Shown piece by piece: positions 1-43,852 of a stretch of DNA of 64,000 bases. The DNA lies in assembly GCA_947474225.1 (NCBI GenBank), contig CANJHS010000007.1, forward strand, positions 1 to 64,000, read 5' to 3'. The translations under genes and the position numbers were made by a program. Below the pieces are notes generated by a model that was not told the DNA's origin, searched no databases, and saw nothing but the letters and a program-made list of their open reading frames with translations. This DNA comes from Roseiflexaceae bacterium (GTDB lineage Bacteria; Chloroflexota; Chloroflexia; Chloroflexales; Roseiflexaceae). How positions within the stretch are numbered: the stretch's first letter is position 1; every line of letters starts with the position of its first letter.

Positions 1-795
1 CAACCAGATCTGCATGTCTTCGCCCATCGTGTCGTGGTGCAAGGCCCAACTGACTTCGAGGACCAGGGTGGCGCCGTTTTCGAAGCGCACAAAGCCGGAA
101 GCAAAATCCTCGACATCCATATCGGCAGGGATGCTGCCGGGATGCCAGACCGAGAACGCGCCGGGCTTTTTGGTGAGCTCACGGCGGGCCACGCCGGTGA
201 CCGAGACGGGCTTGGGGTGACCCATCAACCACAACGTCAGGTCGAGGACGTGGACGCCGATGTCGATACACGGGCCGCCGCCGCTCAGTTCCTTCTTCAC
301 AAAGCCAGCCGTGGGGATAAACGCATTACGGCGCAACATCCAGCTCCGGGCGTGGTAGACATCGCCCAAGGCACCGGCGGCGATTTCTTTCTTCATGGCC
401 TGCGAGACGCCAGCGAAGCGGAAGTGCTGGGCCGTCATCAATTTTTTGCCCGATTTGTCGCGGGCCGCGATCATCGTGCGCACCTCGGCAGGTGTCGGTG
501 CGAGCGGCTTTTCGCAGATGACGTGCTTTCCTGCTTCGAGGGCGGCAATCGCCAACGGGGCATGGTGCATGTTGGGCGTGCAGATGTCGACGATATCGAT
601 GCTGGGATCACGCAGTAGTTCAGCGAAATCGGTCGTTGTGCGCGTCACGCCGTAGCGTGCGCCCCATGCTTCGAGGGCTTTGGGATTAATATCCGCGCCC
701 GTGACGACTTCTGCATCGGTCGAAGCCGCCCAGCCGGGCATATGGGTATGCGCAATTCCACCAACACCGATGACCGCTACTTTCAATGGTGCCAT
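1..795 (-). CDS. Gfo/Idh/MocA-family oxidoreductase, partial (C-terminus beyond left edge)
   Basis: The open frame runs from ATG at 795 to the window edge, giving 265 codons with no stop, so the C-terminus is missing. Seen: an N-terminal Rossmann start with a GVGGIAHTH glycine-rich loop, and the EKPLA motif of the family, where the Lys is catalytic. Family members are NAD(P)-dependent oxidoreductases acting on sugars, inositols and similar polyols; the substrate here cannot be told. The start is supported by AAAGGAGTG about 5 bases upstream and by a good promoter at 834-862. The protein should be cytoplasmic. A second family member lies at 21609-22709. The family call is firm, the substrate unknown. 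Confidence 0.9.
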   Translation of the reverse strand, partial: MAPLKVAVIGVGGIAHTHMPGWAASTDAEVVTGADINPKALEAWGARYGVTRTTTDFAELLRDPSIDIVDICTPNMHHAPLAIAALEAGKHVICEKPLAPTPAEVRTMIAARDKSGKKLMTAQHFRFAGVSQAMKKEIAAGALGDVYHARSWMLRRNAFIPTAGFVKKELSGGGPCIDIGVHVLDLTLWLMGHPKPVSVTGVARRELTKKPGAFSVWHPGSIPADMDVEDFASGFVRFENGATLVLEVSWALHHDTMGEDMQIWL

Positions 796-32941: not shown

Positions 32942-33946
32942 TTAGATGACGACAAACCCATCCTCATCTGTATCACGTACCGTAGTCGGTTCAGGAGGGG
33001 TATCGGAATCTGGGGGAGAGCTTGGTTCGCTGACCAGCGGTTTGAGCACACCGTCTTCGGTGATTATCGGTACGTCAGCATCCGGCGTTTTTGATTCATC
33101 AGATTCGGTGAGATCAGGTGTAGCGTCGGAAGAATCATCACGAAAAAACCTGACAGCTTCCGGAGAAGCCAAATACGAATCATCTGCATGAGGCGGCGCC
33201 GGCTCGACAAGAGTCTCCCTCATGGTTTCTTCAATTGGAACTGCGGACACCTCTGGCACAGCATCGGCTTCTTCACTGGCGATCGGTGTAAAAGCAGGAA
33301 TGAAGGGTACAGCATCCGCATCCGCATCAATTGGCTCTGGAGCAGAAGATTCTCTGGTGGAATCGATAACGGCATGTGTTTCTGGGTGCACAGCTGCGTA
33401 TGTCAACGCAGTCATAGAATCGGTGTCTTTCAGCACTGGAGCTGCATCAGCCACAAGGCTTTGGAGTCGATCAAAGCGATATTCTCCATACGGTCCAAGA
33501 CTTTGAAGAGCCGATATACCCGTAAAAACCAATAGCCAAATCAGAAACGGAGAGAATAAGTGGTCGGCATCTGTTACAAAGCGATAGCGTTCAAACTCGG
33601 AAAAATTCGGGGCTGTAGACTTCGTCATCCAGGCTGCATAGAAAACAATGGGGATCAGCAACAAAACTGCAAAATCAAGCCACTTCGCTACTCCAGCCCT
33701 GCTCCGCAGAGTGAACGCACCCATTGTTAAGCCAAAGCTTACTTCTACAAAGTAGACAATTCCCCACAGAAGTACAAAGAGCAAGATTAAATAGACGTGA
33801 ATAACATGCCATTGGTCTGCAGTATTCCAGTTTAATTTTGTAAAAAATATGGCACGAGTATCATTGCTTTCGAGGAAATTCAGCAAGATGACATATATCG
33901 CTGTAATTTTGTAGAGACTGATGCTCCAAAACGGATGATTACGCAT
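32942..33946 (-). CDS. four-helix membrane protein with a long acidic tail, unknown function
   Basis: 334 aa from ATG 33946. The start overlaps the previous stop by eight bases; a longer frame from 34021 would overlap more. Residues 1-170 contain about four hydrophobic helices, including HVYLILLFVLLWGIVYFVEV and AVLLLIPIVFYAAWM. Residues 175-334 are Asp/Glu/Ala/Pro/Ser-rich without predicted structure, ending DEDGFVVI. I do not recognise a family. As the last gene of the operon it probably anchors or scaffolds the tubulin-like proteins at the membrane, with the tail in the cytoplasm. That role is an inference. Confidence 0.75.
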   Translation of the reverse strand: MRNHPFWSISLYKITAIYVILLNFLESNDTRAIFFTKLNWNTADQWHVIHVYLILLFVLLWGIVYFVEVSFGLTMGAFTLRSRAGVAKWLDFAVLLLIPIVFYAAWMTKSTAPNFSEFERYRFVTDADHLFSPFLIWLLVFTGISALQSLGPYGEYRFDRLQSLVADAAPVLKDTDSMTALTYAAVHPETHAVIDSTRESSAPEPIDADADAVPFIPAFTPIASEEADAVPEVSAVPIEETMRETLVEPAPPHADDSYLASPEAVRFFRDDSSDATPDLTESDESKTPDADVPIITEDGVLKPLVSEPSSPPDSDTPPEPTTVRDTDEDGFVVI

Positions 33947-36900
33947 CACGGGTCTTCTTCCTATTGACCTGAACATACGGATATAGTTCGACGTGGTCGG
34001 TCGAGCGCCACCGGTACCCACGCGCCAAGCATTTTTTGATGATGTTGTTTGGGAGGATCGGATCCTCTACATCAGTCTTGATTGCACCACTCTCAAGATC
34101 GAACACCGTTCCCGTTTCTGGAGTGAACGCTTCCAATCCAACGAGTACAAGTAGTCGATCGATACTGTGATCAAAATTCTTGAGGGCGATTCTGGTTACT
34201 TCGTCTGCTTGTGCAGAACAAAACAAATCATACGGTCGAAGTACAAGAGGAATGACGCGGCGTAGATCCTCGGTGGTATGGAGATGCAAATGATATTCAG
34301 CGAGATCTTTCTCCGCAAAGGCTAAGTACTTTTGCGTTGCCATGATAAGCAGGATGCTCGTATGGACTGGAACTGAAGTGTCCGAAAATGCGTCGCGGAG
34401 CATAAAAACTGATTTACTGACATGCTCGCGCACAGCATCAAGCAGTGAAGCGACGGGGGGGATTATTGATTCAATACCAATATCTGGCTCTACAAAAGTG
34501 CCTCGCAATGATTTGAGCTGTTCGCGTCGTGCGTGTTCTCCAGCAGCTTCGAGTTGACGCCACCTCGCCACTTCACTTGCCACGACCCCACAGTACATTC
34601 GAATCATCATGACACGATGCGCATCCGGCCAATCCACTGCAGTAACAGAGCCATCTGGTCCATCAATGACCGCATCAAAAAATGGTCGCACTCGCCGCGA
34701 CACCATGAGCGCATCAAGACGCAAGCGGCTGTAAGTGTCCGACACTTCATAGTCATGGGTAGCCTTCAGCCATGGTACGCTTGAGCGCCAGAGTCGATGC
34801 ATTAATGTCAGGACATCCTGACCTACGAGATACTCATCAATTGATTTGGTAGAGATGTCAGATACGACTGGGTCGATTTGAGTCTCAAGACGTGCTACAA
34901 CTGTGTCTATGTCTTCCACGCGCCATGGGTCCTCAGCACCGCCACTCCGTGGACGCCACGACGATACGACATTCACTCCATACCGGCTGACAATCGAATC
35001 GGCTACTTGCTTTTGATATGGAACCATCACATCGACTGGATCGACGACCGCTGATTCCAAATAATCAATTCTTTTGCGAAAGAGCCGGTCACGTTCGAGC
35101 GCATCAGGTGAAGTTGCTCGGAGTGCAGAATCACGATGTGCAGCCAACTCCCCCAGTGGTACTGCCAATTCTTCGGCGCGTTGATTACCCAATCTTGCCT
35201 GAATCACCGACGCCACAATAGCAGTATGGTCAGCCAAAACCGCACTCGCACGGCTCTTGAGATACGCCTCGAGCTGCCGTTTGCGCCATTGCTGTTGCCA
35301 AATAACGCCAATGTATGGTAAGAGCCAAATAACGATTGTCGGAATCAATACAATCAACGTTGTTGCGAACAACAGTCGCGACCAGACCGCAGGCGGATCT
35401 GCATAACTGAAGTCGAATATCTGCATCGGGAATAATGCTGTCTGCGCCTTCCAGGCTGCATCCCAATAGAGTTGGAATAAGATGGCGATGAGGCACGCCG
35501 CCCGAACAAGCATTGCAGGTAAATGCGCACGGAGGTCCACAGCCCGCTCAAGCATAATATCGGGATTTACCCCAAACCACGTGCGTGTCTCAGTAATGCG
35601 TTTGAGCTCGCGATCAGCGATTTTGCTTTCACGGATGGCCTGGGCACCGAGAGTTTCGCTGTGTTCATGCAGGACTCGTGCCGCTTTTCGTAGTGTCGCA
35701 ACACTTTTTTGAAGCCCGTCCCCTCCAAGCGAGAGCAACATCGCGGTACTCCGACCAGCTTCGGCTTCGGATTCGCGTGCAGTCTCGTAGCGATTATCTG
35801 CAAGCTGTGTTGCAAACGTCGACATCATTTCTGCCGACGTCGCCTGCGCTTCACGTTGGCGCGCCAAGATGACGGCAGCAGTCAGTTGCTCGTCGAATGG
35901 ATTAGCAGAACTTGCTGTGACGGTAATTCCGTCTACATTCGGTTTGATGATGATGTCATTCGCCGAGATACCGACGTCAATATTCAGATTCGTATTATGT
36001 TCGAATGGACCTTTCGCGGATTCTACAGAAAGCGTATTGACGCTTTTCCGCGCGTTTTCACTCAAATATGTCGAGAACCGCGACACAATGCTTTGGACGG
36101 TGGCGTCATCAGTTTTGTCAACCGAATCAGCGGGCAACAAACGATCTCGAATCAACGTTCCCAGCGTGTATCGGCGCACCAAAGTGGTTATGTCACGTAA
36201 CGGAACAACTAATGAAGCCGATCCAACACCAATGTAGAGCTGACGCGTCGTCATCGTGTGGTCATCGAGCAACGCTTGGTCAATTGTACGAGGAAGCGCG
36301 CTATAAACCATCCCTTCTAGCAGCGAAGAAACGTGGGTAGCGACTTCGAATACATCGTCGTCTTGACCAATCGATCCATTGTTTTCTTTGTGGCCATCAA
36401 TCCAAAATATGTTGTCATAGAGCCGCGTATCGTATCCGTCTGAACCAATACCAGCTCGCACTTTGCCTTGCCAAATAACTTCCCCTGCAGCCAGTCGGTC
36501 GCCTTCGTCGAAGACGGTCCATGTATTTGCTTCGCCGCCTTCCCGTTGACTCGCATCTTCGCGATAGTCTGCTGAAACGAACACCCCGTATAGGGTGTAC
36601 TGCATTGAAGATCCAATAGCGGCTCGGATAATTGCTGACAGTGGCCACAACAGTGCACGCCCTGTCTCACTCCAGGTTGCCCCGACGACGATGATGACCG
36701 GACGAAGCGTGTCGAAGAGCGGCGCATCGCGATGCAATCTGACCGTATTAAACATCTGACGCAAATCACGAGCGATATCGCGAAGCGATTCCTCGGTCAA
36801 TTGCGATGCACGAATGTCATCAGCCTTGTCTTCAAAGATTGCTACGTTTGTAGGCAGAATCCGTGTGTACACGGACCCCGCATCCTCACCCGCCAGTGGC

Positions 36901-37037
36901 GTCTTGAAGCCACGGTAGACGTCACGTTGGAGTGCGATTCGATCGCGAACCGCCAGACCAAATGCACCCACCCCAATGATGATTGCTGGCTGTGGTGATT
37001 CAGTGGTCCTGATTGCGTCGTGTTGGGGTATCGACAT
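33939..37037 (-). CDS. large membrane-associated protein, tubulin-like paralogue lacking the G-box (inferred)
   Basis: 1032 aa. N-terminal strand and loop AIIIGVGAFGLAVRDRI (18-34) parallels the VLGLGGTGTAIIRHLK start of the next gene. At 113-126 the strand VIIVVGATWSETG sits where the partner has its GGTGSGT tubulin signature, and both are followed by a similar helix and beta strand. Thus it may be a divergent tubulin-like protein without a working nucleotide loop. Two membrane helices lie at about 504-525 and 555-578 with a short loop between. The C-terminal 450 residues are helical. Its own family is not recognised. It starts seven bases after the GTPase stop. Confidence 0.7.
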   Translation of the reverse strand: MSIPQHDAIRTTESPQPAIIIGVGAFGLAVRDRIALQRDVYRGFKTPLAGEDAGSVYTRILPTNVAIFEDKADDIRASQLTEESLRDIARDLRQMFNTVRLHRDAPLFDTLRPVIIVVGATWSETGRALLWPLSAIIRAAIGSSMQYTLYGVFVSADYREDASQREGGEANTWTVFDEGDRLAAGEVIWQGKVRAGIGSDGYDTRLYDNIFWIDGHKENNGSIGQDDDVFEVATHVSSLLEGMVYSALPRTIDQALLDDHTMTTRQLYIGVGSASLVVPLRDITTLVRRYTLGTLIRDRLLPADSVDKTDDATVQSIVSRFSTYLSENARKSVNTLSVESAKGPFEHNTNLNIDVGISANDIIIKPNVDGITVTASSANPFDEQLTAAVILARQREAQATSAEMMSTFATQLADNRYETARESEAEAGRSTAMLLSLGGDGLQKSVATLRKAARVLHEHSETLGAQAIRESKIADRELKRITETRTWFGVNPDIMLERAVDLRAHLPAMLVRAACLIAILFQLYWDAAWKAQTALFPMQIFDFSYADPPAVWSRLLFATTLIVLIPTIVIWLLPYIGVIWQQQWRKRQLEAYLKSRASAVLADHTAIVASVIQARLGNQRAEELAVPLGELAAHRDSALRATSPDALERDRLFRKRIDYLESAVVDPVDVMVPYQKQVADSIVSRYGVNVVSSWRPRSGGAEDPWRVEDIDTVVARLETQIDPVVSDISTKSIDEYLVGQDVLTLMHRLWRSSVPWLKATHDYEVSDTYSRLRLDALMVSRRVRPFFDAVIDGPDGSVTAVDWPDAHRVMMIRMYCGVVASEVARWRQLEAAGEHARREQLKSLRGTFVEPDIGIESIIPPVASLLDAVREHVSKSVFMLRDAFSDTSVPVHTSILLIMATQKYLAFAEKDLAEYHLHLHTTEDLRRVIPLVLRPYDLFCSAQADEVTRIALKNFDHSIDRLLVLVGLEAFTPETGTVFDLESGAIKTDVEDPILPNNIIKKCLARGYRWRSTDHVELYPYVQVNRKKTRDA

Positions 37038-37044
37038 CCGTAGC

Positions 37045-40000
37045 CTATGCTTCTATCAAGCGGATTGCAATCAAGCTGACGTCTTGATAATTAATGGAAT
37101 TACGCAGTTCTGTGACGATAGCATCAGTGATGCGACTCGGATCGGTGCGGAACCGTTCTACCGACTGGCGAAGAGCATTCTGCAACAGCGGCGTATTCAC
37201 GCCATCACTAGCGAGCACGATGTTTGTGTTGACACCAATGTTTGACAAAACAATTGTGCCATCTCCACTCAAATCTGACGTCGTTCCATCTGCTGCATAC
37301 AGTCGAACAAAGTCACCACCGCTTGCAGCTGCGAGGAGTTGGTCGTCCTCGATGATGCTCACGGCATATGCGATGCTCCGTTCGACACGCCCTTGCTGGC
37401 GCGCCAAGCGGTTGATGTCTTCAGTAGCACGCTGGCGGGCTGTTTCGAAGGCTACCTTGAGTCGTTCACCAGCCGACCCAGTGATACGCGTGCTTCGTAG
37501 CGTCTGTTCGAGCGACGCTGACACGGTGCGAATCCAGAGTCGTGCCAAATCGTCATTTTCGGCATTCAAATCATCGGCAATCAATGCAACATTCCAACTG
37601 AAACCGTTTGACAGCTCGATTGAGCGATGAATCACAGCCTCGGCACCGTACGACTTATTGGCACGTGGGTGCGAAAAACTGTCCCCGATGACGCGGAGGC
37701 GTGAACGCGTTGGTTGTACTAATAATGGTGTCGAAACCGAACTCCCTTTGACGAGATTACTCATTCCATTCGGCCAATCACGATGGATATGCAGAGGATC
37801 GCCAAGGGTCTCGGTGAAGTAGCGATAGGATTTGTAGTATTCCTTGAGGTTTGCTAAATCGTCAACCTTATAGCCGAAACGTGCATGGACGACATCGAGT
37901 CGATTGGGCATACCGGTGTCAATCAAATCATAGGAATCCCCACCGAATTCATCCAACGGATGCTGTCCAGTCTCGAGAATTTCTTTCTTCGGGAGTGGAC
38001 TTGCTCCTAAAAGCCGTACTGGTTCGGTGTCGAAGCCGTGTTCGGTACCCAATTGTGCCTGATCAATATTGAGGAACGGCGACTGGGCCCGGTATCGGAG
38101 TTGACGGAGTGGGTCAATCGGGCTATTGCGCGATATAGATGACTCTGCTGTCGAGTACGGAACGTTATCGTAGAACCAGGTAAGGTAGTCCGATACACTG
38201 ATACGCTCAAAGATATCTTTGTGGCCAGCCAAAAACTGCGTTATCGCTTCTTTGTAAAGCCGGAAGGTATCTGTTGAATCAGTAATGGTTACCGCTATCC
38301 GAACGTCTTGTTCATGAGGGTAGATGTAGTGCACCAACTTCATTTCGTTGATGAGTTTCTGCAATTGTTTTTTTGCGTCTGCATCAAGGTCAATCGTCTT
38401 GACGCGGTTGGTGATATAGTGCCCGAGCAAATCTTCGCCGAATTCATGTTTGCCGCGATCTTCTACTGCACGCTCTTTGCCCAATTCGGTAGCAAGTTCA
38501 AACAGATCGCTCGGCTTTTGTTCTCGGCTCTTTTGACGATTGACCTCCGGCTCTTTGACTTTGTCGTTGAGGGTCGTCTGCCATTCGTCAAAAACCGCCT
38601 GCTGCCGAGTAATCGTGCTGTTGAATGTCGTGAGTTGAGACCGCAGTGACGTGACAACAGATCGCACTTCCTGGAGATATCCGCGTTCCGCTCCGCCTGT
38701 GTTGATTTTGCGCGTCAAATCGTTACGCAGTTGCTCTTCACCCTCGTCGTTTTTCGTAAACATATTGAAAAGACGACGCGATGTGTTATTCAATGCCTCG
38801 CGCTTTTTCTCGTCTTCGGTCATCCGTGACGTTGTCGCACCTATTTTTTCGTCAATACGGATAAGGAGTTCGCTCAGAACTTCCGACATCGCTGACCCTA
38901 CCGATGCCGCACCCAACATGCCTTTTTCTTCAGAGTACTGTTGGAGTAACGCCGATACCTGTGTGGTTAATTCTCGGGTGGCGGTTGCGACTGCAGGTCC
39001 AGAGTCGCCCTTGCCTTTGGCTGGTTTGTAATCGAGCAGTGCTTCCCAGCTTTCGCGCAGTTGTTCACGAATGCGTGAAACCTGAAGGGGTGCGAGTGTG
39101 CTACCGACAATGTGTGAAGCCAGCACATGGGCTGCATAGCGGTTGCCGGTTTCTTCGACGACACGTTCGGGCAACACAAGGGACGCGGTCACAAAACCGG
39201 CAATGGCCAGCGCGCTACTCGATTCGTTGTCGCTGCCCTTGCGTTGTTCGCCAGCCAGGTCGTTGAGGTTGACGCGACGGCCCGCCAAACGCTTACCGAT
39301 GGGAGTAATCATATCGAGGTAGATGAATTGGGCGGCCATGCGCTGAATCTCACGAAGGGCACTCAGATGCTCTTTGCCGTTGTGTGAATCTACCAAAAAG
39401 ACGCTGTCGAACGGCCGGGTCAACACAGACGACACCTTGTTGCCTTCGCCGTCGTAGTATGGAGTATCTGGGAATGTCGAAACGAACTTGGTATTGGGGC
39501 TGAGGAAGTGGTTCAGCTCGCGGAGTGCGGCATATGCATTGCCTTGAACTCGTTCTTTTTGGACTTGGCTTTGCATATTGGGCATGAAGCATGATGGCAA
39601 AAACAAAATGCCGATGATTTCGGCTTCGTCACCCAGAGCTTTACGCACACGAAAGGCAGCGTCGATGAACGTGCCCGACCCGGTGCCACCACAGACCGAT
39701 GCCAAGATATACACCCGCACCTGACCGGTACGTTCGACATCGAGGCCGTACCGTTCGGTTTTTTCTTTTTCTGAAATCTCTTGCACACGACGAATCTTGG
39801 GATCGAGTCGTTGGGTGAATTCGCCCCACTTGGCGTAGAGTGACAGACGGCCGACGGCACGGCGTTGTCGTGCACCTTTGTAGATTGAACCGACGACTTT
39901 GCCGTTGGTGAACCACCAGTCTTTGATGTGTGGGTGGTTGTCTATGTTCTCGAGCACTGCACCAGCATTAAAGTCACCGATGTATGCGATTTCACCGTCA

Positions 40001-40215
40001 TAGAGACGCTCTTCGCCGGGCAGGTTTTGGATTGGCTCGGTGTCGACGGCCAAGAATTCGACCAATCGCGGGATGGGCATATTGCCGACTGCCTGACGCA
40101 ACCGAGATTTGAGGTGACGAATAATTGCGGTACCGGTGCCACCTAATCCCAAGACAATCGTGGGTGCAATATACATCGAAGATGGACGATATCCCTGCTT
40201 GGACGAATCAGTCAT
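37045..40215 (-). CDS. FtsZ/tubulin-like GTPase (bacterial Tubulin_2 type)
   Basis: 1056 aa, with GAGGAG before the ATG. Seen: the N-terminal VLGLGGTGTA loop (21-30), AVDTE (56-60) at the position of the FtsZ NTDAQ segment, and CGGTGSGTF (175-183), the tubulin/FtsZ nucleotide-binding signature. The N-terminal roughly 400 residues form the GTPase part; the remainder is long and mostly helical. Makarova and Koonin described this diverse FtsZ-like family as linked to VWA proteins and proposed a role in membrane remodelling. The VWA gene directly upstream fits. Filament formation is inferred, not seen. Confidence 0.88.
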   Translation of the reverse strand: MTDSSKQGYRPSSMYIAPTIVLGLGGTGTAIIRHLKSRLRQAVGNMPIPRLVEFLAVDTEPIQNLPGEERLYDGEIAYIGDFNAGAVLENIDNHPHIKDWWFTNGKVVGSIYKGARQRRAVGRLSLYAKWGEFTQRLDPKIRRVQEISEKEKTERYGLDVERTGQVRVYILASVCGGTGSGTFIDAAFRVRKALGDEAEIIGILFLPSCFMPNMQSQVQKERVQGNAYAALRELNHFLSPNTKFVSTFPDTPYYDGEGNKVSSVLTRPFDSVFLVDSHNGKEHLSALREIQRMAAQFIYLDMITPIGKRLAGRRVNLNDLAGEQRKGSDNESSSALAIAGFVTASLVLPERVVEETGNRYAAHVLASHIVGSTLAPLQVSRIREQLRESWEALLDYKPAKGKGDSGPAVATATRELTTQVSALLQQYSEEKGMLGAASVGSAMSEVLSELLIRIDEKIGATTSRMTEDEKKREALNNTSRRLFNMFTKNDEGEEQLRNDLTRKINTGGAERGYLQEVRSVVTSLRSQLTTFNSTITRQQAVFDEWQTTLNDKVKEPEVNRQKSREQKPSDLFELATELGKERAVEDRGKHEFGEDLLGHYITNRVKTIDLDADAKKQLQKLINEMKLVHYIYPHEQDVRIAVTITDSTDTFRLYKEAITQFLAGHKDIFERISVSDYLTWFYDNVPYSTAESSISRNSPIDPLRQLRYRAQSPFLNIDQAQLGTEHGFDTEPVRLLGASPLPKKEILETGQHPLDEFGGDSYDLIDTGMPNRLDVVHARFGYKVDDLANLKEYYKSYRYFTETLGDPLHIHRDWPNGMSNLVKGSSVSTPLLVQPTRSRLRVIGDSFSHPRANKSYGAEAVIHRSIELSNGFSWNVALIADDLNAENDDLARLWIRTVSASLEQTLRSTRITGSAGERLKVAFETARQRATEDINRLARQQGRVERSIAYAVSIIEDDQLLAAASGGDFVRLYAADGTTSDLSGDGTIVLSNIGVNTNIVLASDGVNTPLLQNALRQSVERFRTDPSRITDAIVTELRNSINYQDVSLIAIRLIEA

Positions 40216-40235
40216 AACTACTCCTCGTAGATTGT

Positions 40236-43200
40236 TTACTTATATGAAACCCGGATACCTTCATCGCCGAACCGGGCAGATCTGCTGAGCTTTGCAGTTT
40301 GCTGCGCCTTTGCATCAGGATTCAAATCATCGTCTGTTATCCAAACGCCGATGGTTTCGCCGTCGATAGCCTTAATCCCACCGACAACGATATCGTCCTC
40401 CGACTCACTTCCTTGTTTCACCACACCGAGACCTTCAAATCCCCCGTAGGATGGGCGCACGATGGATAACGGACTGTTTCCATACGCCGTGAGCGAAATC
40501 CAGCGTGTTGTGACATCGTCTTGGCTGAACCGAATCTCTCCCGCATAGCGCCGATAAAACTTTGTAATCAGCCAGCGTATGAGCAGAACACCAAGCAGGA
40601 TTAGGAGAAGCCGTTGAATAACTTCCCACCATGATTTTGTGGGGACACGCAGTATTACAGATTTGGGACTGACAACCCGAGGATCTGTAATATCCAACTG
40701 AACATCGTACTCCTTGCCGGGCCATCGGAGCCACGGAAGGTTCGTCTCGACCAGATAGCCATCGTAGAGATGTGAACGCGTGTTGAGATTCGCTGGCGTC
40801 CACGAAAAATCATACGGGTCATTGACGAGGGCGTTATTTTCTTGGATATCCGCAACCGTCTGGCTGAGCGGGTTGTCGATCACCGGCATCGTACGTGTGT
40901 GCGTAATGATGGCCGAGTATGAAATCTGGGTTTCGTTTTGAAATGGAATCCAGATAGGCCAGATAGCATTGTCTACCGCATATGTGTCAGACATATTCTG
41001 AACACGACGATTTTCGGGGAAGAGTATCTGCACCTGCGGCGCACCGCGACGAATCTTGACCCCTCGGAGTGCTGGTTCGACGGGGACGGCTGGATTGGAG
41101 GTCTGTCCTGCCAGACTGAACGTGTATTCTCCGGCTGCTAAGCGGGAACCCTCGATGATAATTCGGTAGCCTTCAGGGCACGATGTATCTGGCTGAATCA
41201 TTGCAGTGATGTCACTTGCATTTGCCTTCTGCGAACCGGCATACACATCACTCACCACGAGCTCTGGTTTGAGTACCGCATCAGGCGACAGCACGGGGTA
41301 TGCACGAACGCACTGAGAGGTCGTGCTGTTTATTTCGTCGATGGAATCTGCAAAAGTGAAGCCGTCGGGGAGGATGTCCCAATGCCATGACGATGCAGGC
41401 CTGGTAAAGCGGAGTTGCAACGGCTCTTTGGTACCCCCTGATACCGTCTGCGTTTCGACGGTGTAGTTATCCACGGATAACCCGCTCACATCGCCGAGTG
41501 TGAATGGGTAGCGAATAACTGTTTTACCATCAGCTGCTTTCTGCATGGTTGGCTCTTCAAATTGGAGCAATTCGGGATTGCCAGTGGAGCCATTTTGTCC
41601 GAGCATATTCATCTTTGACGTATCGATTGTAGGGATACTCCCGCCGCGAATTTTGGTTTTACATATAAGTGCATTACGAAAGACCTGCGTCGTCGAGATG
41701 ACGCCGATATCGACAAATGATGTCCCAGTGCTGTCTTGCAATGGACTTGGTCCACTCGTCGTACGTTCGAGTTCGAATGCACAGCTCATGGATGGAGTGA
41801 CGATTCGTTGCTGATAAAGCGCGATTGGTCTACCCTCATACACGCCTGGGATGACCACGCGTACGTTTGACTGAACCCCCGGATCAGACTCGATGTCTGC
41901 GGAACCAGAACCATCCGCGATGGAGAGGTCTTGGGTTGCTACTGACTCATCCCCGAGAGCTTGCAGTGAATCGCTGATAGGTTGGGTGAACACCAGGCCA
42001 TTGGTCAACGAGAGGGCTGTTGTATCAGGGAGTGAAGTCTCGATATGGAGCTCACTCTCAGAATTGAGTTTGGGCGATGTAATGGTCGGGCTGGTTATTT
42101 CGAGGGGTAATTCAACTGTTGATGGTTGAAACTCATAGCAGCGGCGTAAGTTTATCGATCCAACTTGCTGCACACCCACACCGACATATATTGGGTTCTC
42201 GGATTCTTTGATGGTCTCCCAGAAAACGGTATCACCGGATTTATTGAGACCGTTTTGCTGTGCTGGTGCATCTGAAAGCCTGGTAGTTTGATAGTCCTCG
42301 CAGCTGGCGAGTGTCGATACACGCACCGCAGAGAACAACGATTGTTCGAGGTTCGTCACCGTGGCACCGACCAGGACTGAGGATGCCCCACGCGGGAAGC
42401 CCATAATTGCACTGTCTGTGGCATTTTCGTCGGGATATCGTAGGACCACTTCGAGCGCAGATTGCACAAAGACAAAACTGGTCACATCAGCAGGATTCGC
42501 ATTTGCAGTGAATTCAAATTTTCCATCTATACCACCGGGTTTTTCATAGAAAAAACTGCGAAATCGACCTGTGGTGGCACCAGATTTACCCGCAAAGGGT
42601 GATTTCTTTTCTGTGACTGTGAGTAGATTTTTGTTGGCATTTGATGCAAATACAAACGTCGCTTTTTCGATTTGCTGGCCTTTTATAGCACTCGTAATAT
42701 ATGCAGAAGAATTCGTTCCCGTGCCCGCAGCTCCGCCAATGACATCGAGGTATGCGCTCGGTTTGAGATAGGTTATGACCGAAGCCATTGCCCGTGCGAT
42801 GTCGAAGGCTGACGCTATAGGAATGACCCGTTGATTGGCTTGCGTGAAGCCGGCACTCACTTTGGCAAATGTATCAGTGTTCGAGGCAGTGTCCGGCTTC
42901 AATGCCAACAGGAATACTGGTACACCGAGTGCCTTGAGCGCTGCAGTGGTGTTTTTGGTGATATCGTCACCTTCACCCAGATCTTCGGGCGCTCCATCTG
43001 TCAAAAAAATGACCGCTCGTTTATTCCCTGAACCCGTCTGGTCCAGCAAGGCTTTGGCGTTGGTGAAGGCTGCCTGGTAGTTTGTGCCATTGGGTTCGAC
43101 AGCGGGATCACGGACGACCCATGTACCATCAAACGGCGAAACGGTTTTGGCATTGGCAGGCGGATTGGAATAGTCGACTGCCATGTCACTGATTTTTTTA

Positions 43201-43538
43201 CGAAAGTCGGTTTTGACTTCAGAAGAGAGACGAAAAAATTGATTATCCAGCGTCCGGGCTGTTTTGGAAAAATGAACAACACCGACGCGATCTTTTTCGT
43301 CGAGCAAATCGACGAGCATATTTGTTGCTTCGTAGCGCAGGCCGTACGGGTCTGACCCTGTCATTGCTGTTGACTTATAGTTCGAATGCATCGAACCAGA
43401 ATTGTCAATAATAACGATAATATCGAGGTTTTGAGCACTGCTGGATGCGGTCACGCGTACGGGCATTAAAAGTCCTGACACGGCGAGGTAGAGTGCCAGA
43501 AGGAGGGGGGCTTTTCGCAATAATCGAGAATATTTCAT
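40236..43538 (-). CDS. membrane-anchored von Willebrand factor A domain protein
   Basis: 1100 aa from ATG 43538, with GGAG upstream. A signal peptide at 1-31 ends near ASS. VWA domain about 38-260: the metal-binding (MIDAS) site is complete, with DNSGS (D45, S47, S49), T152 and D181 in LTDG. Long extracellular beta-rich region to about 965. A transmembrane helix (RLLLILLGVLLIRWLI) follows and then about 110 cytoplasmic residues. MIDAS domains bind protein ligands through a divalent metal. It is the first gene of the operon with the tubulin-like GTPase, 20 bases upstream of it. Confidence 0.88.
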   Translation of the reverse strand: MKYSRLLRKAPLLLALYLAVSGLLMPVRVTASSSAQNLDIIVIIDNSGSMHSNYKSTAMTGSDPYGLRYEATNMLVDLLDEKDRVGVVHFSKTARTLDNQFFRLSSEVKTDFRKKISDMAVDYSNPPANAKTVSPFDGTWVVRDPAVEPNGTNYQAAFTNAKALLDQTGSGNKRAVIFLTDGAPEDLGEGDDITKNTTAALKALGVPVFLLALKPDTASNTDTFAKVSAGFTQANQRVIPIASAFDIARAMASVITYLKPSAYLDVIGGAAGTGTNSSAYITSAIKGQQIEKATFVFASNANKNLLTVTEKKSPFAGKSGATTGRFRSFFYEKPGGIDGKFEFTANANPADVTSFVFVQSALEVVLRYPDENATDSAIMGFPRGASSVLVGATVTNLEQSLFSAVRVSTLASCEDYQTTRLSDAPAQQNGLNKSGDTVFWETIKESENPIYVGVGVQQVGSINLRRCYEFQPSTVELPLEITSPTITSPKLNSESELHIETSLPDTTALSLTNGLVFTQPISDSLQALGDESVATQDLSIADGSGSADIESDPGVQSNVRVVIPGVYEGRPIALYQQRIVTPSMSCAFELERTTSGPSPLQDSTGTSFVDIGVISTTQVFRNALICKTKIRGGSIPTIDTSKMNMLGQNGSTGNPELLQFEEPTMQKAADGKTVIRYPFTLGDVSGLSVDNYTVETQTVSGGTKEPLQLRFTRPASSWHWDILPDGFTFADSIDEINSTTSQCVRAYPVLSPDAVLKPELVVSDVYAGSQKANASDITAMIQPDTSCPEGYRIIIEGSRLAAGEYTFSLAGQTSNPAVPVEPALRGVKIRRGAPQVQILFPENRRVQNMSDTYAVDNAIWPIWIPFQNETQISYSAIITHTRTMPVIDNPLSQTVADIQENNALVNDPYDFSWTPANLNTRSHLYDGYLVETNLPWLRWPGKEYDVQLDITDPRVVSPKSVILRVPTKSWWEVIQRLLLILLGVLLIRWLITKFYRRYAGEIRFSQDDVTTRWISLTAYGNSPLSIVRPSYGGFEGLGVVKQGSESEDDIVVGGIKAIDGETIGVWITDDDLNPDAKAQQTAKLSRSARFGDEGIRVSYK

Positions 43539-43852
43539 GCACACGCTCCGAATCAATACTCTATGAAGCATAGCAGTGGTCGTGTCCACATATGTGAACT
43601 TTGTGGAAAATGTTCCGTATATCGTAATCATACCCGAGGAGGGATACCTATTGCATGACGATGCTATGACAGGTACTGTCAGTGGAGGGTGAGCAAGCCA
43701 CAGCCTTTTACGCCGAGACACGAAGAAATTGGATCGACAATTCATCATCAAGCGCTGTTATGGGTTGCCTCATCTCAGAGAGAAAAGATTCGTGCAATGT
43801 CAAATCTGATTGTCTCGATTGTTACAAACTTCGACAAATCCGTAACAATACC
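43539..43852. other. intergenic region upstream of the VWA operon
   Basis: No supported gene. On the minus strand an extended -10 candidate TGCTATGCT lies near 43570, without a clear -35. A CACATATGTG palindrome is close to it. This region should carry the promoter of the 32942-43538 operon. Confidence 0.4.

Follow-up and report, generated by a model that had tools for sequence, protein, structure and literature searches.

A candidate membrane-anchored tubulin paralogue without a nucleotide loop beside the FtsZl1 GTPase of a Roseiflexaceae bacterium

FtsZl1, the Tubulin_2 family of Pfam (PF13809), has been regarded since 2010 as a predicted membrane-remodelling tubulin. The family, its operons with vWA genes and the lineage-specific neighbour families without recognisable domains were defined by Makarova and Koonin (2010, PMC2875224); in the portion of that paper available here, the T6-H7 elements and the C-terminal domain of FtsZl1 could not be placed, and authors and reviewers discussed the missing fold elements as well as the cytoplasm/periplasm problem. 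Tubulin-domain and vWA proteins were also described as components of conflict systems predicted in Firmicutes and Actinobacteria, with two tubulin-domain genes per locus in Firmicutes (Kaur et al. 2020, PMC7159879, available text), and a 2023 survey (PMC9871819, likewise available in part) set the Tubulin_2 proteins aside. Here we describe two adjacent genes in a 64,000-nucleotide stretch (the window) of a Roseiflexaceae bacterium (assembly GCA_947474225.1, contig CANJHS010000007.1, positions 1 to 64,000). The first, F, encodes an FtsZl1 (Tubulin_2) GTPase-like protein of 1056 residues (37045..40215, minus strand). The second, P, has an ATG start and encodes a protein of 1032 residues (33939..37037, minus strand) that appears to be a degenerate FtsZl1 paralogue without the nucleotide loop and with a two-helix membrane hairpin.

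F matches PF13809 with 185 bits against a cut-off of 27 (E 2.3e-54, Pfam scan) and is therefore a member of the FtsZl1 family, and the compact gene order vWA-F-P, in which the gaps measure 21 and 8 bases, reproduces the operon with vWA that characterises FtsZl1. P shares several features with the systems of PMC2875224, namely the operon of vWA, FtsZl1 and a lineage-specific membrane protein, a homologous N domain, a coiled coil and a helical C-terminal part. In P the predicted order is an N-terminal FtsZ-like domain, the coiled coil and a mainly helical C-terminal part, in a model with a mean predicted local distance difference test score (pLDDT) of 58.5. On the contrary, the G-loop and the PF13809 match are absent from P, and a degenerate paralogue is not described in the available part of that paper. 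The Firmicutes GAP1-N2/DO-GTPase twin tubulins resemble the F-P pair in bringing together two tubulin-domain genes, coiled coils and vWA in one locus, but neither copy is called inactive or membrane-anchored in the accessible text of PMC7159879, unlike P. A Pfam scan of eight open reading frames (ORFs) between 30.7 and 44.6 kb of the window found no GTPase family of the DO-GTPase/GAP1 kind that those Firmicutes systems carry, the GAP1 models not having been searched by name. In the literature searched, which comprised the accessible portions of papers outside subscription and supplementary files, we found no description of a membrane-anchored FtsZl1 partner without a G-loop.

Sequence scans alone leave the paralogy of P and F looking unsupported, so that profiles were needed. 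BLASTP of P against F gave E 0.43, no useful match; P matched nothing in Pfam (none at E<=1), NCBIfam (noise at E 0.18) or PADLOC, and it lies below every PF13809 threshold, including the Tubulin_2 cut-off. We built an F-only profile from 14 G-loop-bearing F domains and searched the 473 ORFs of 60 loci (the window and 59 others). Results showed that this profile scores P with 33.0 bits (E 8.7e-10), while among 1000 shuffled versions of P and a reversed copy the top score was 6.5 bits, 373 of these 1001 sequences being reported at all. Control ORFs (>=300 residues, not F, not downstream of F and not tubulin-like) had a best E of about 0.2, with L112_1 (E 0.011) and L114_6 (E 0.031), probably diverged F proteins, treated separately. 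Profile-profile alignment with hhalign, whose E values refer to single profile pairs, gave a probability of 95.8 and E 7.6e-9 for four P proteins (alignment A1) against eight F proteins (A2). With the enlarged sets of 21 P-type (A4) and 23 F proteins (A5) the probability was 98.7, with E 2.2e-16 across 286 columns. The coiled-coil middle parts of P and F gave no significant alignment. In the other direction, a P-only profile matched the F proteins of Cylindrospermopsis (Cyanobacteria, E 4.4e-12) and Azospirillum (E 1.7e-10).

Within its genus P has relatives with 83% identity in locus L008 and 52% in L009/L026. A relative in another family of the order (genome G238, locus L025) shares 34% identity across the N domain, and one more (L037, RFGC01000023.1, 33%) comes from a metagenome bin that bears the label Acidobacteria. 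The vWA-F-P genes of L037 are nearly identical to those of G238, which belongs to the order of the window (95% in F and P), pointing to either a transfer or a mislabelled bin. Moreover, two proteins are intermediate between F and P: L028_1 and L078_6 stand in the position of P and lack the G-loop, their F-profile scores are 107 and 79 bits, and the former also matches PF13809 (E 9e-17). Sequence comparison and structure prediction together identify P as a full-length paralogue of F, descended from the same tubulin-like ancestor. Outside the collected loci, an IMG/VR scan with A1 gave 32 pattern matches, none of which was confirmed, phage records searched with P and plasmid records searched with the L078 partner gave no match, and the F of L102, used as query on plasmid records, found a single weak match, in Paraburkholderia.

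The nucleotide loop of F, GGTGSG, occupies residues 176-181 (39673..39690, minus strand). In P, residues 114-126, VIIVVGATWSETG (36660..36698, minus strand), replace strand S4 and the T4 GTP loop CGGTGSG. The profile alignment puts GGTGSG of F on WSETGR of P, which has no GGGTG(S/T)G-type loop; the GTP-loop columns read VVGATWSETGRALLWPLS in P against ILASVCGGTGSGTFIDAA in F, and the hhalign of A1 against A2 places VGATWSETG opposite CGGTGSG and IGVGSASLVVPL opposite AGFVTASLVLP. By these alignments and the predicted structure, the loop has been lost from P. The sequence-only reading, which had proposed a paralogue that kept the fold and lost the loop at the place where its active neighbour has GGTGSGT, is largely borne out here: the coordinates and length of the ORF are exact, the F-only profile and the tubulin/CetZ-like core of the model support the kinship, and the profile-profile comparison that it had called for is significant. 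The position of the replacement motif needed a small correction, as it had been placed at 113-126.

Other conserved elements lie on both sides of this site. P carries IIIGVGAFGLAVRDRI at residues 18-33, of which residues 18-29, IIIGVGAFGLAV (36951..36986, minus strand), align to the F profile as the counterpart of the T1 loop (IVLGLGGTGTAI in F), with columns reading IIIGVGAFGLA in P against IVLGLGGTGTA in F; through this retained GxGxxG-like turn P may still bind some nucleotide. Further on, residues 267-280, LYIGVGSASLVVPL (36198..36239, minus strand), form an S7-like strand that corresponds to LAIAGFVTASLVLP of FtsZl1. The pattern GATWS..G.ALLWP is invariant in all four A1 sequences, the most distant of which is only 25% identical to the P of the window, and this invariance shows constraint on the stretch. 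At the loop position the residues of other partner subfamilies differ.

We also looked at the predicted fold. In the AlphaFold2 model of P, made from a P-only alignment, the best core blocks reach pLDDT 70-83. VIA-align placed this model on tubulin or CetZ in 50 of 50 rows among the matches listed (Z 13.9-14.4), the best superposition running from residues 15..809 of P on 1..360 of tubulin with Z 14.4, a root-mean-square deviation of 3.8 and 262 aligned residues; the tubulin core expected by the sequence-only reading is thus present in the model, with Z about 14. Foldseek returned FtsZ, CetZ and TubZ rows at probability 0.94-0.95 and E 0.1-0.4. The model of F (pLDDT 66.7, predicted template modelling score, pTM, 0.60) superposed on CetZ1 with Z 25.1, a deviation of 3.8 and 303 of 330 residues (model residues 17..802), and its Foldseek E values went down to 8e-6. 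The CetZ/FtsZ/TubZ fold is therefore matched by F and more weakly by P; unlike those proteins, both are interrupted by a long coiled coil, and the nucleotide loop is absent from P. PDB sequence searches returned only coiled-coil, helical and membrane-helix hits of a chance-like kind for the P profile, and mostly such hits plus TubZ at E 0.95 for the F profile.

Both structural alignments, whose ranges give the first and last aligned residue only, span the coiled coil, and the C-terminal part (about 731-802 in F, 770-809 in P) completes the tubulin fold. This suggests that FtsZl1 has the entire tubulin fold, interrupted by an inserted coiled coil inside which the hairpin of P lies, whereas the fold appeared incomplete in the accessible part of PMC2875224. 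Residues ~743-834 of P (34536..34811, minus strand) are the candidate activation (C-terminal) domain, on the basis of the VIA-align match to residue 809 and of hhalign. The C-terminal parts of P and F align in register but weakly (probability 42, pairwise E 2.7e-4), compared with E 0.5-0.9 for mismatched parts; with smaller alignments E was 0.05-0.18. P thus combines a tubulin-type N domain with a less well supported, predicted activation domain. From profiles and models, the N-terminal fold is kept in P, and the C-terminal activation domain is probably kept as well.

The membrane hairpin of P consists of helix 1 at residues 506-524 (35466..35522, minus strand) and helix 2 at residues 555-573 (35319..35375, minus strand), according to Kyte-Doolittle hydrophobicity with a 19-residue window. 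It had been suggested beforehand that P gained two membrane helices; these are real by hydrophobicity and conserved, but they are internal. By sequence and model, the hairpin sits in the coiled coil between the two tubulin halves and not at an end of the protein. Among the 31 partner proteins examined, 26 have the two-helix hairpin, with Lys and Arg making up 167 of 780 residues (21%) in the flanks and 27 of 457 (6%) in the loop. Under the positive-inside rule, this bias would place the ends of the hairpin, and so both tubulin halves of P, in the cytoplasm. In a rule-based scan the hairpin is present in 27 of 40 genes downstream of F, compared with 3 of 36 upstream genes, 4 of the 49 F genes themselves and 22 of the 227 other ORFs, and 23 of the 30 downstream partners that match the F profile carry it. 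Four F proteins with an intact GGTGAG loop have a hairpin of their own (L107:8872-12531, L109:3752-7378, L110:8612-12244 and L111:3509-7672); in these loci the gene after F is of the vWA type and no degenerate partner was seen. The hairpin is mostly carried by P, and in these four loci by F; this complementary placement is the best clue that it serves to bring the tubulin part to the membrane.

To describe how often the pair recurs, we collected loci across the phylum. In the order, 11 of 82 genomes have a Tubulin_2 match; the class has 16 such genomes among 158 and the phylum 46 among 400. Of these 46 genomes 39 were taken in, the 7 left out all having weak matches, and P-like matches occur in 4 of the 82 genomes of the order. 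An F gene was defined by the pattern GG[TSA][GN][SAG][GSA] together with E<1e-3, and a neighbour by the same strand, a length of >=300 residues and a position within 400 bases downstream. ORFs containing extended stretches of X were left out, as were the shorter of overlapping ORFs, which removed a long fused ORF of L031; in L105 the F gene is represented by an antisense ORF, and L050 yielded no F because of its broken frame. These rules defined 49 F genes, 40 of them with a downstream neighbour. Of these 40 neighbours, twenty hit the F profile at E<0.01 and ten others at E 0.01-10; a canonical G-loop is found in none of these 30. No upstream neighbour matches the profile (0/36), and 27 of the 36 carry a vWA MIDAS motif. 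Among the other ORFs of >=300 residues, 7 of 227 match at E<0.01, of which five are partners on broken contigs, one gene further off or beside a masked F, and the remaining two (L108_5 and L113_3) are tubulin-like genes without the canonical loop. Further tubulin-like domains with a GGMSG loop, apparently another degenerate branch, were seen in very long ORFs of L031 and L032:4587-11378, of which the L031 ORF includes a stretch of N and is perhaps not a single gene.

In a tree of 61 N domains, 20 of 27 partners fall into one cluster (support 87, tree drawn open), and 4 changes between the F and P labels are needed compared with about 20 in shuffles, in what is a quick tree made unsafe by its many long branches; the partners may thus have one origin or several. 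The same small local groupings recur in the F and P subtrees. The order vWA-F-P recurs in Chloroflexota, where alone, by sequence criteria, the dead partner is established. In the genome of the window F is the only Tubulin_2 gene, with two ordinary FtsZ-type matches on another contig. One more P-like match, in G158 (L006), covers 72 residues (E 5.8e-5) with three in-frame stops, in a region where neither an FtsZl1 nor a P gene was seen, and was left uncounted.

The vWA protein (40236..43538, minus strand) has a signal-peptide-like start, a DNSGSM MIDAS motif and a C-terminal membrane helix. Its ORF was listed with a TTG start (40236-43751), and the Met at residue 72 (about 43538), which opens a typical signal peptide, is likely the true start. 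On the other side, a fourth gene (32942..33946, minus strand) overlaps the end of P by 8 bases and encodes a membrane protein with an acidic proline-rich tail; its place beside P is kept in L026. In L037 (11287-13986) and L025 (919-3654) the position after vWA-F-P is taken instead by a 393/397-residue protein of unassigned family and a large protein, which in L037 is a HerA/DUF87-type ATPase according to Pfam. The four-gene cluster (32942-43751) has a guanine-plus-cytosine (GC) fraction of 0.507 compared with 0.548 in the window, and only short, weak repeats were found around the operon; the low GC and the patchiness in the genus are as expected of an accessory island. On plasmids pTHEOS01 of Thermus oshimai (L118:6395-14354) and pMESIL01 of Allomeiothermus silvanus (L119:6390-15482), vWA, FtsZl1 and an unmatched protein of 677/686 residues are encoded close to brxL and RecQ-type genes, resembling a defence-island setting.

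Considering these data, the unit likely consists, as read from the sequences, of a secreted vWA protein, a soluble GTPase tubulin F and a membrane-anchored dead tubulin P. We think that P is probably a pseudo-GTPase, a membrane-anchored and nucleotide-free partner in the FtsZl1 (Tubulin_2) system that seeds, caps or tethers F. P would bind F through a tubulin-type interface, GTP-driven F assemblies would start at, or be capped on, the membrane through P, and they would be coupled there to the extracellular vWA sensor or adhesin. Having no GTP pocket, P would have no GTP-controlled contacts of its own, and its role would be that of a fixed seed, cap or tether instead of a dynamic subunit. More tentatively, a fuller scenario is possible, a conserved prokaryotic two-tubulin machine in which one subunit gave up nucleotide binding for good, its loop was rebuilt into a new conserved motif, this dead subunit took over membrane anchoring, seeds or caps the GTP-driven polymers of its active paralogue and connects them through the membrane with an extracellular vWA protein, and lineages devoid of P put the hairpin on the active subunit.

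Several observations weigh against this reading of P. Its model is weak (pTM 0.40 at the pLDDT given above), and none of the 378 Foldseek matches reached E<=0.001, with long helical chains among the top ranks. Most main-group F proteins have an Asn-hydrophobic motif at T7, and the Asn is not visible in the P of the window, where the alignment is poor, so that any contribution of P to the GTP site of F is hypothetical. Ten of the 40 downstream neighbours have no F-profile match at all, including four vWA-type genes (L107, L109-L111), a kinase-domain protein (L030) and L103_6, which nonetheless clusters with matching partners in the tree; 7 of the 30 matching partners lack the hairpin. The genes that follow FtsZl1 in the loci of Thermus, Meiothermus, Deinococcus (D. 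deserti) and Azospirillum (A. ramasamyi) stay below significance; hhalign E values were 0.04 and 0.02 for the Thermus/Meiothermus pair, where a vWA control gave 0.65 and 0.03. The system is also patchy within the order, for P-like and Tubulin_2 matches alike. Finally, between L025 and L037 the ratio of nonsynonymous (dN) to synonymous (dS) substitution is 0.90 in P compared with 0.37 in F, from few differences, and this ratio calls for caution.

In heteromeric tubulins (alpha/beta, BtubA/B and the Asgard AtubA/B) both subunits keep the GTP loop and bind GTP. The F-P pair, which is known from genes and models, resembles them as paralogous subunits of tubulin fold made together, but where they keep two loops it has, by its sequence, lost one, on the predicted membrane-anchored subunit. 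The earlier comparison of the pair with heteromeric tubulins consequently applies to the paralogy and not to the loops, and the loss places P closer to a pseudoenzyme partner than to a heteromeric tubulin subunit. P and F might still alternate in one alpha/beta-like heteropolymer, with the sealed pocket of P as the non-exchangeable site and every second subunit anchored by a hairpin; the adjacent genes occurring as a pair, the two tubulin-fold halves that seem kept in P and the locally mirrored trees would all fit. We consider this quite unlikely, as the whole nucleotide face of P is rebuilt, the T7 Asn is not seen, and the four F proteins with their own hairpin in loci devoid of P indicate that alternation is not required in the family. 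The loop may instead have been rebuilt for another ligand, or P may be a membrane receptor that switches F in a conflict or stress response, polymerisation being secondary. The motif kept invariant in A1 despite 25% identity speaks for a use and not for mere decay, and the patchy distribution, the low GC of the operon, the tubulin-domain and vWA proteins of predicted conflict systems (PMC7159879, available text) and the vicinity of brxL and recQ-type genes to vWA-FtsZl1 on the two Thermaceae plasmids point the same way. On the contrary, PADLOC matches none of the four operon proteins, the Pfam scan of eight window ORFs gave no GTPase/GAP1-type gene, no ligand is indicated, and the loop residues differ among partner subfamilies, so that this explanation is also unlikely.

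Two further explanations concern the nature of P itself. High divergence and the L025/L037 ratio would suit a decaying, functionless duplicate. However, the reading frame of P stays open for 1032 codons in the window and for about 1030 or more in L026, L025 and L037, its dN between the window and L008 is 0.125 (lowest, 0.06, in residues 1-330, the N domain) against a saturated dS, which supports a function, and the hairpin is conserved in most partners. A pseudogene was rejected on these grounds, decay being already largely refuted, with almost no weight left. That P is an unrelated Rossmann-type protein resembling F only locally could be argued from the BLASTP result, the missing Pfam match and the weak Foldseek E values; we rejected this as very improbable considering the profile matches in both directions, the co-linear S7-like motif and the G-loop-less intermediates in the same position.

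Regarding the FtsZl1 family, the reviews of PMC2875224, in the part available, raised the problem of how a cytoplasmic FtsZ-like protein reaches membrane or extracellular vWA partners, and that of whether it can form filaments when the fold seemed partly missing. A dead, membrane-anchored paralogue such as P is a candidate for the missing link between F and the membrane or vWA, and the models suggest that the fold of FtsZl1 is present after all, divided by an inserted coiled coil. If this is true, P would be a tubulin subunit that keeps its place in the system after the loss of its nucleotide loop, and the recurring F-P pairing across the phylum would give a concrete handle on the function of a poorly understood cytoskeleton.

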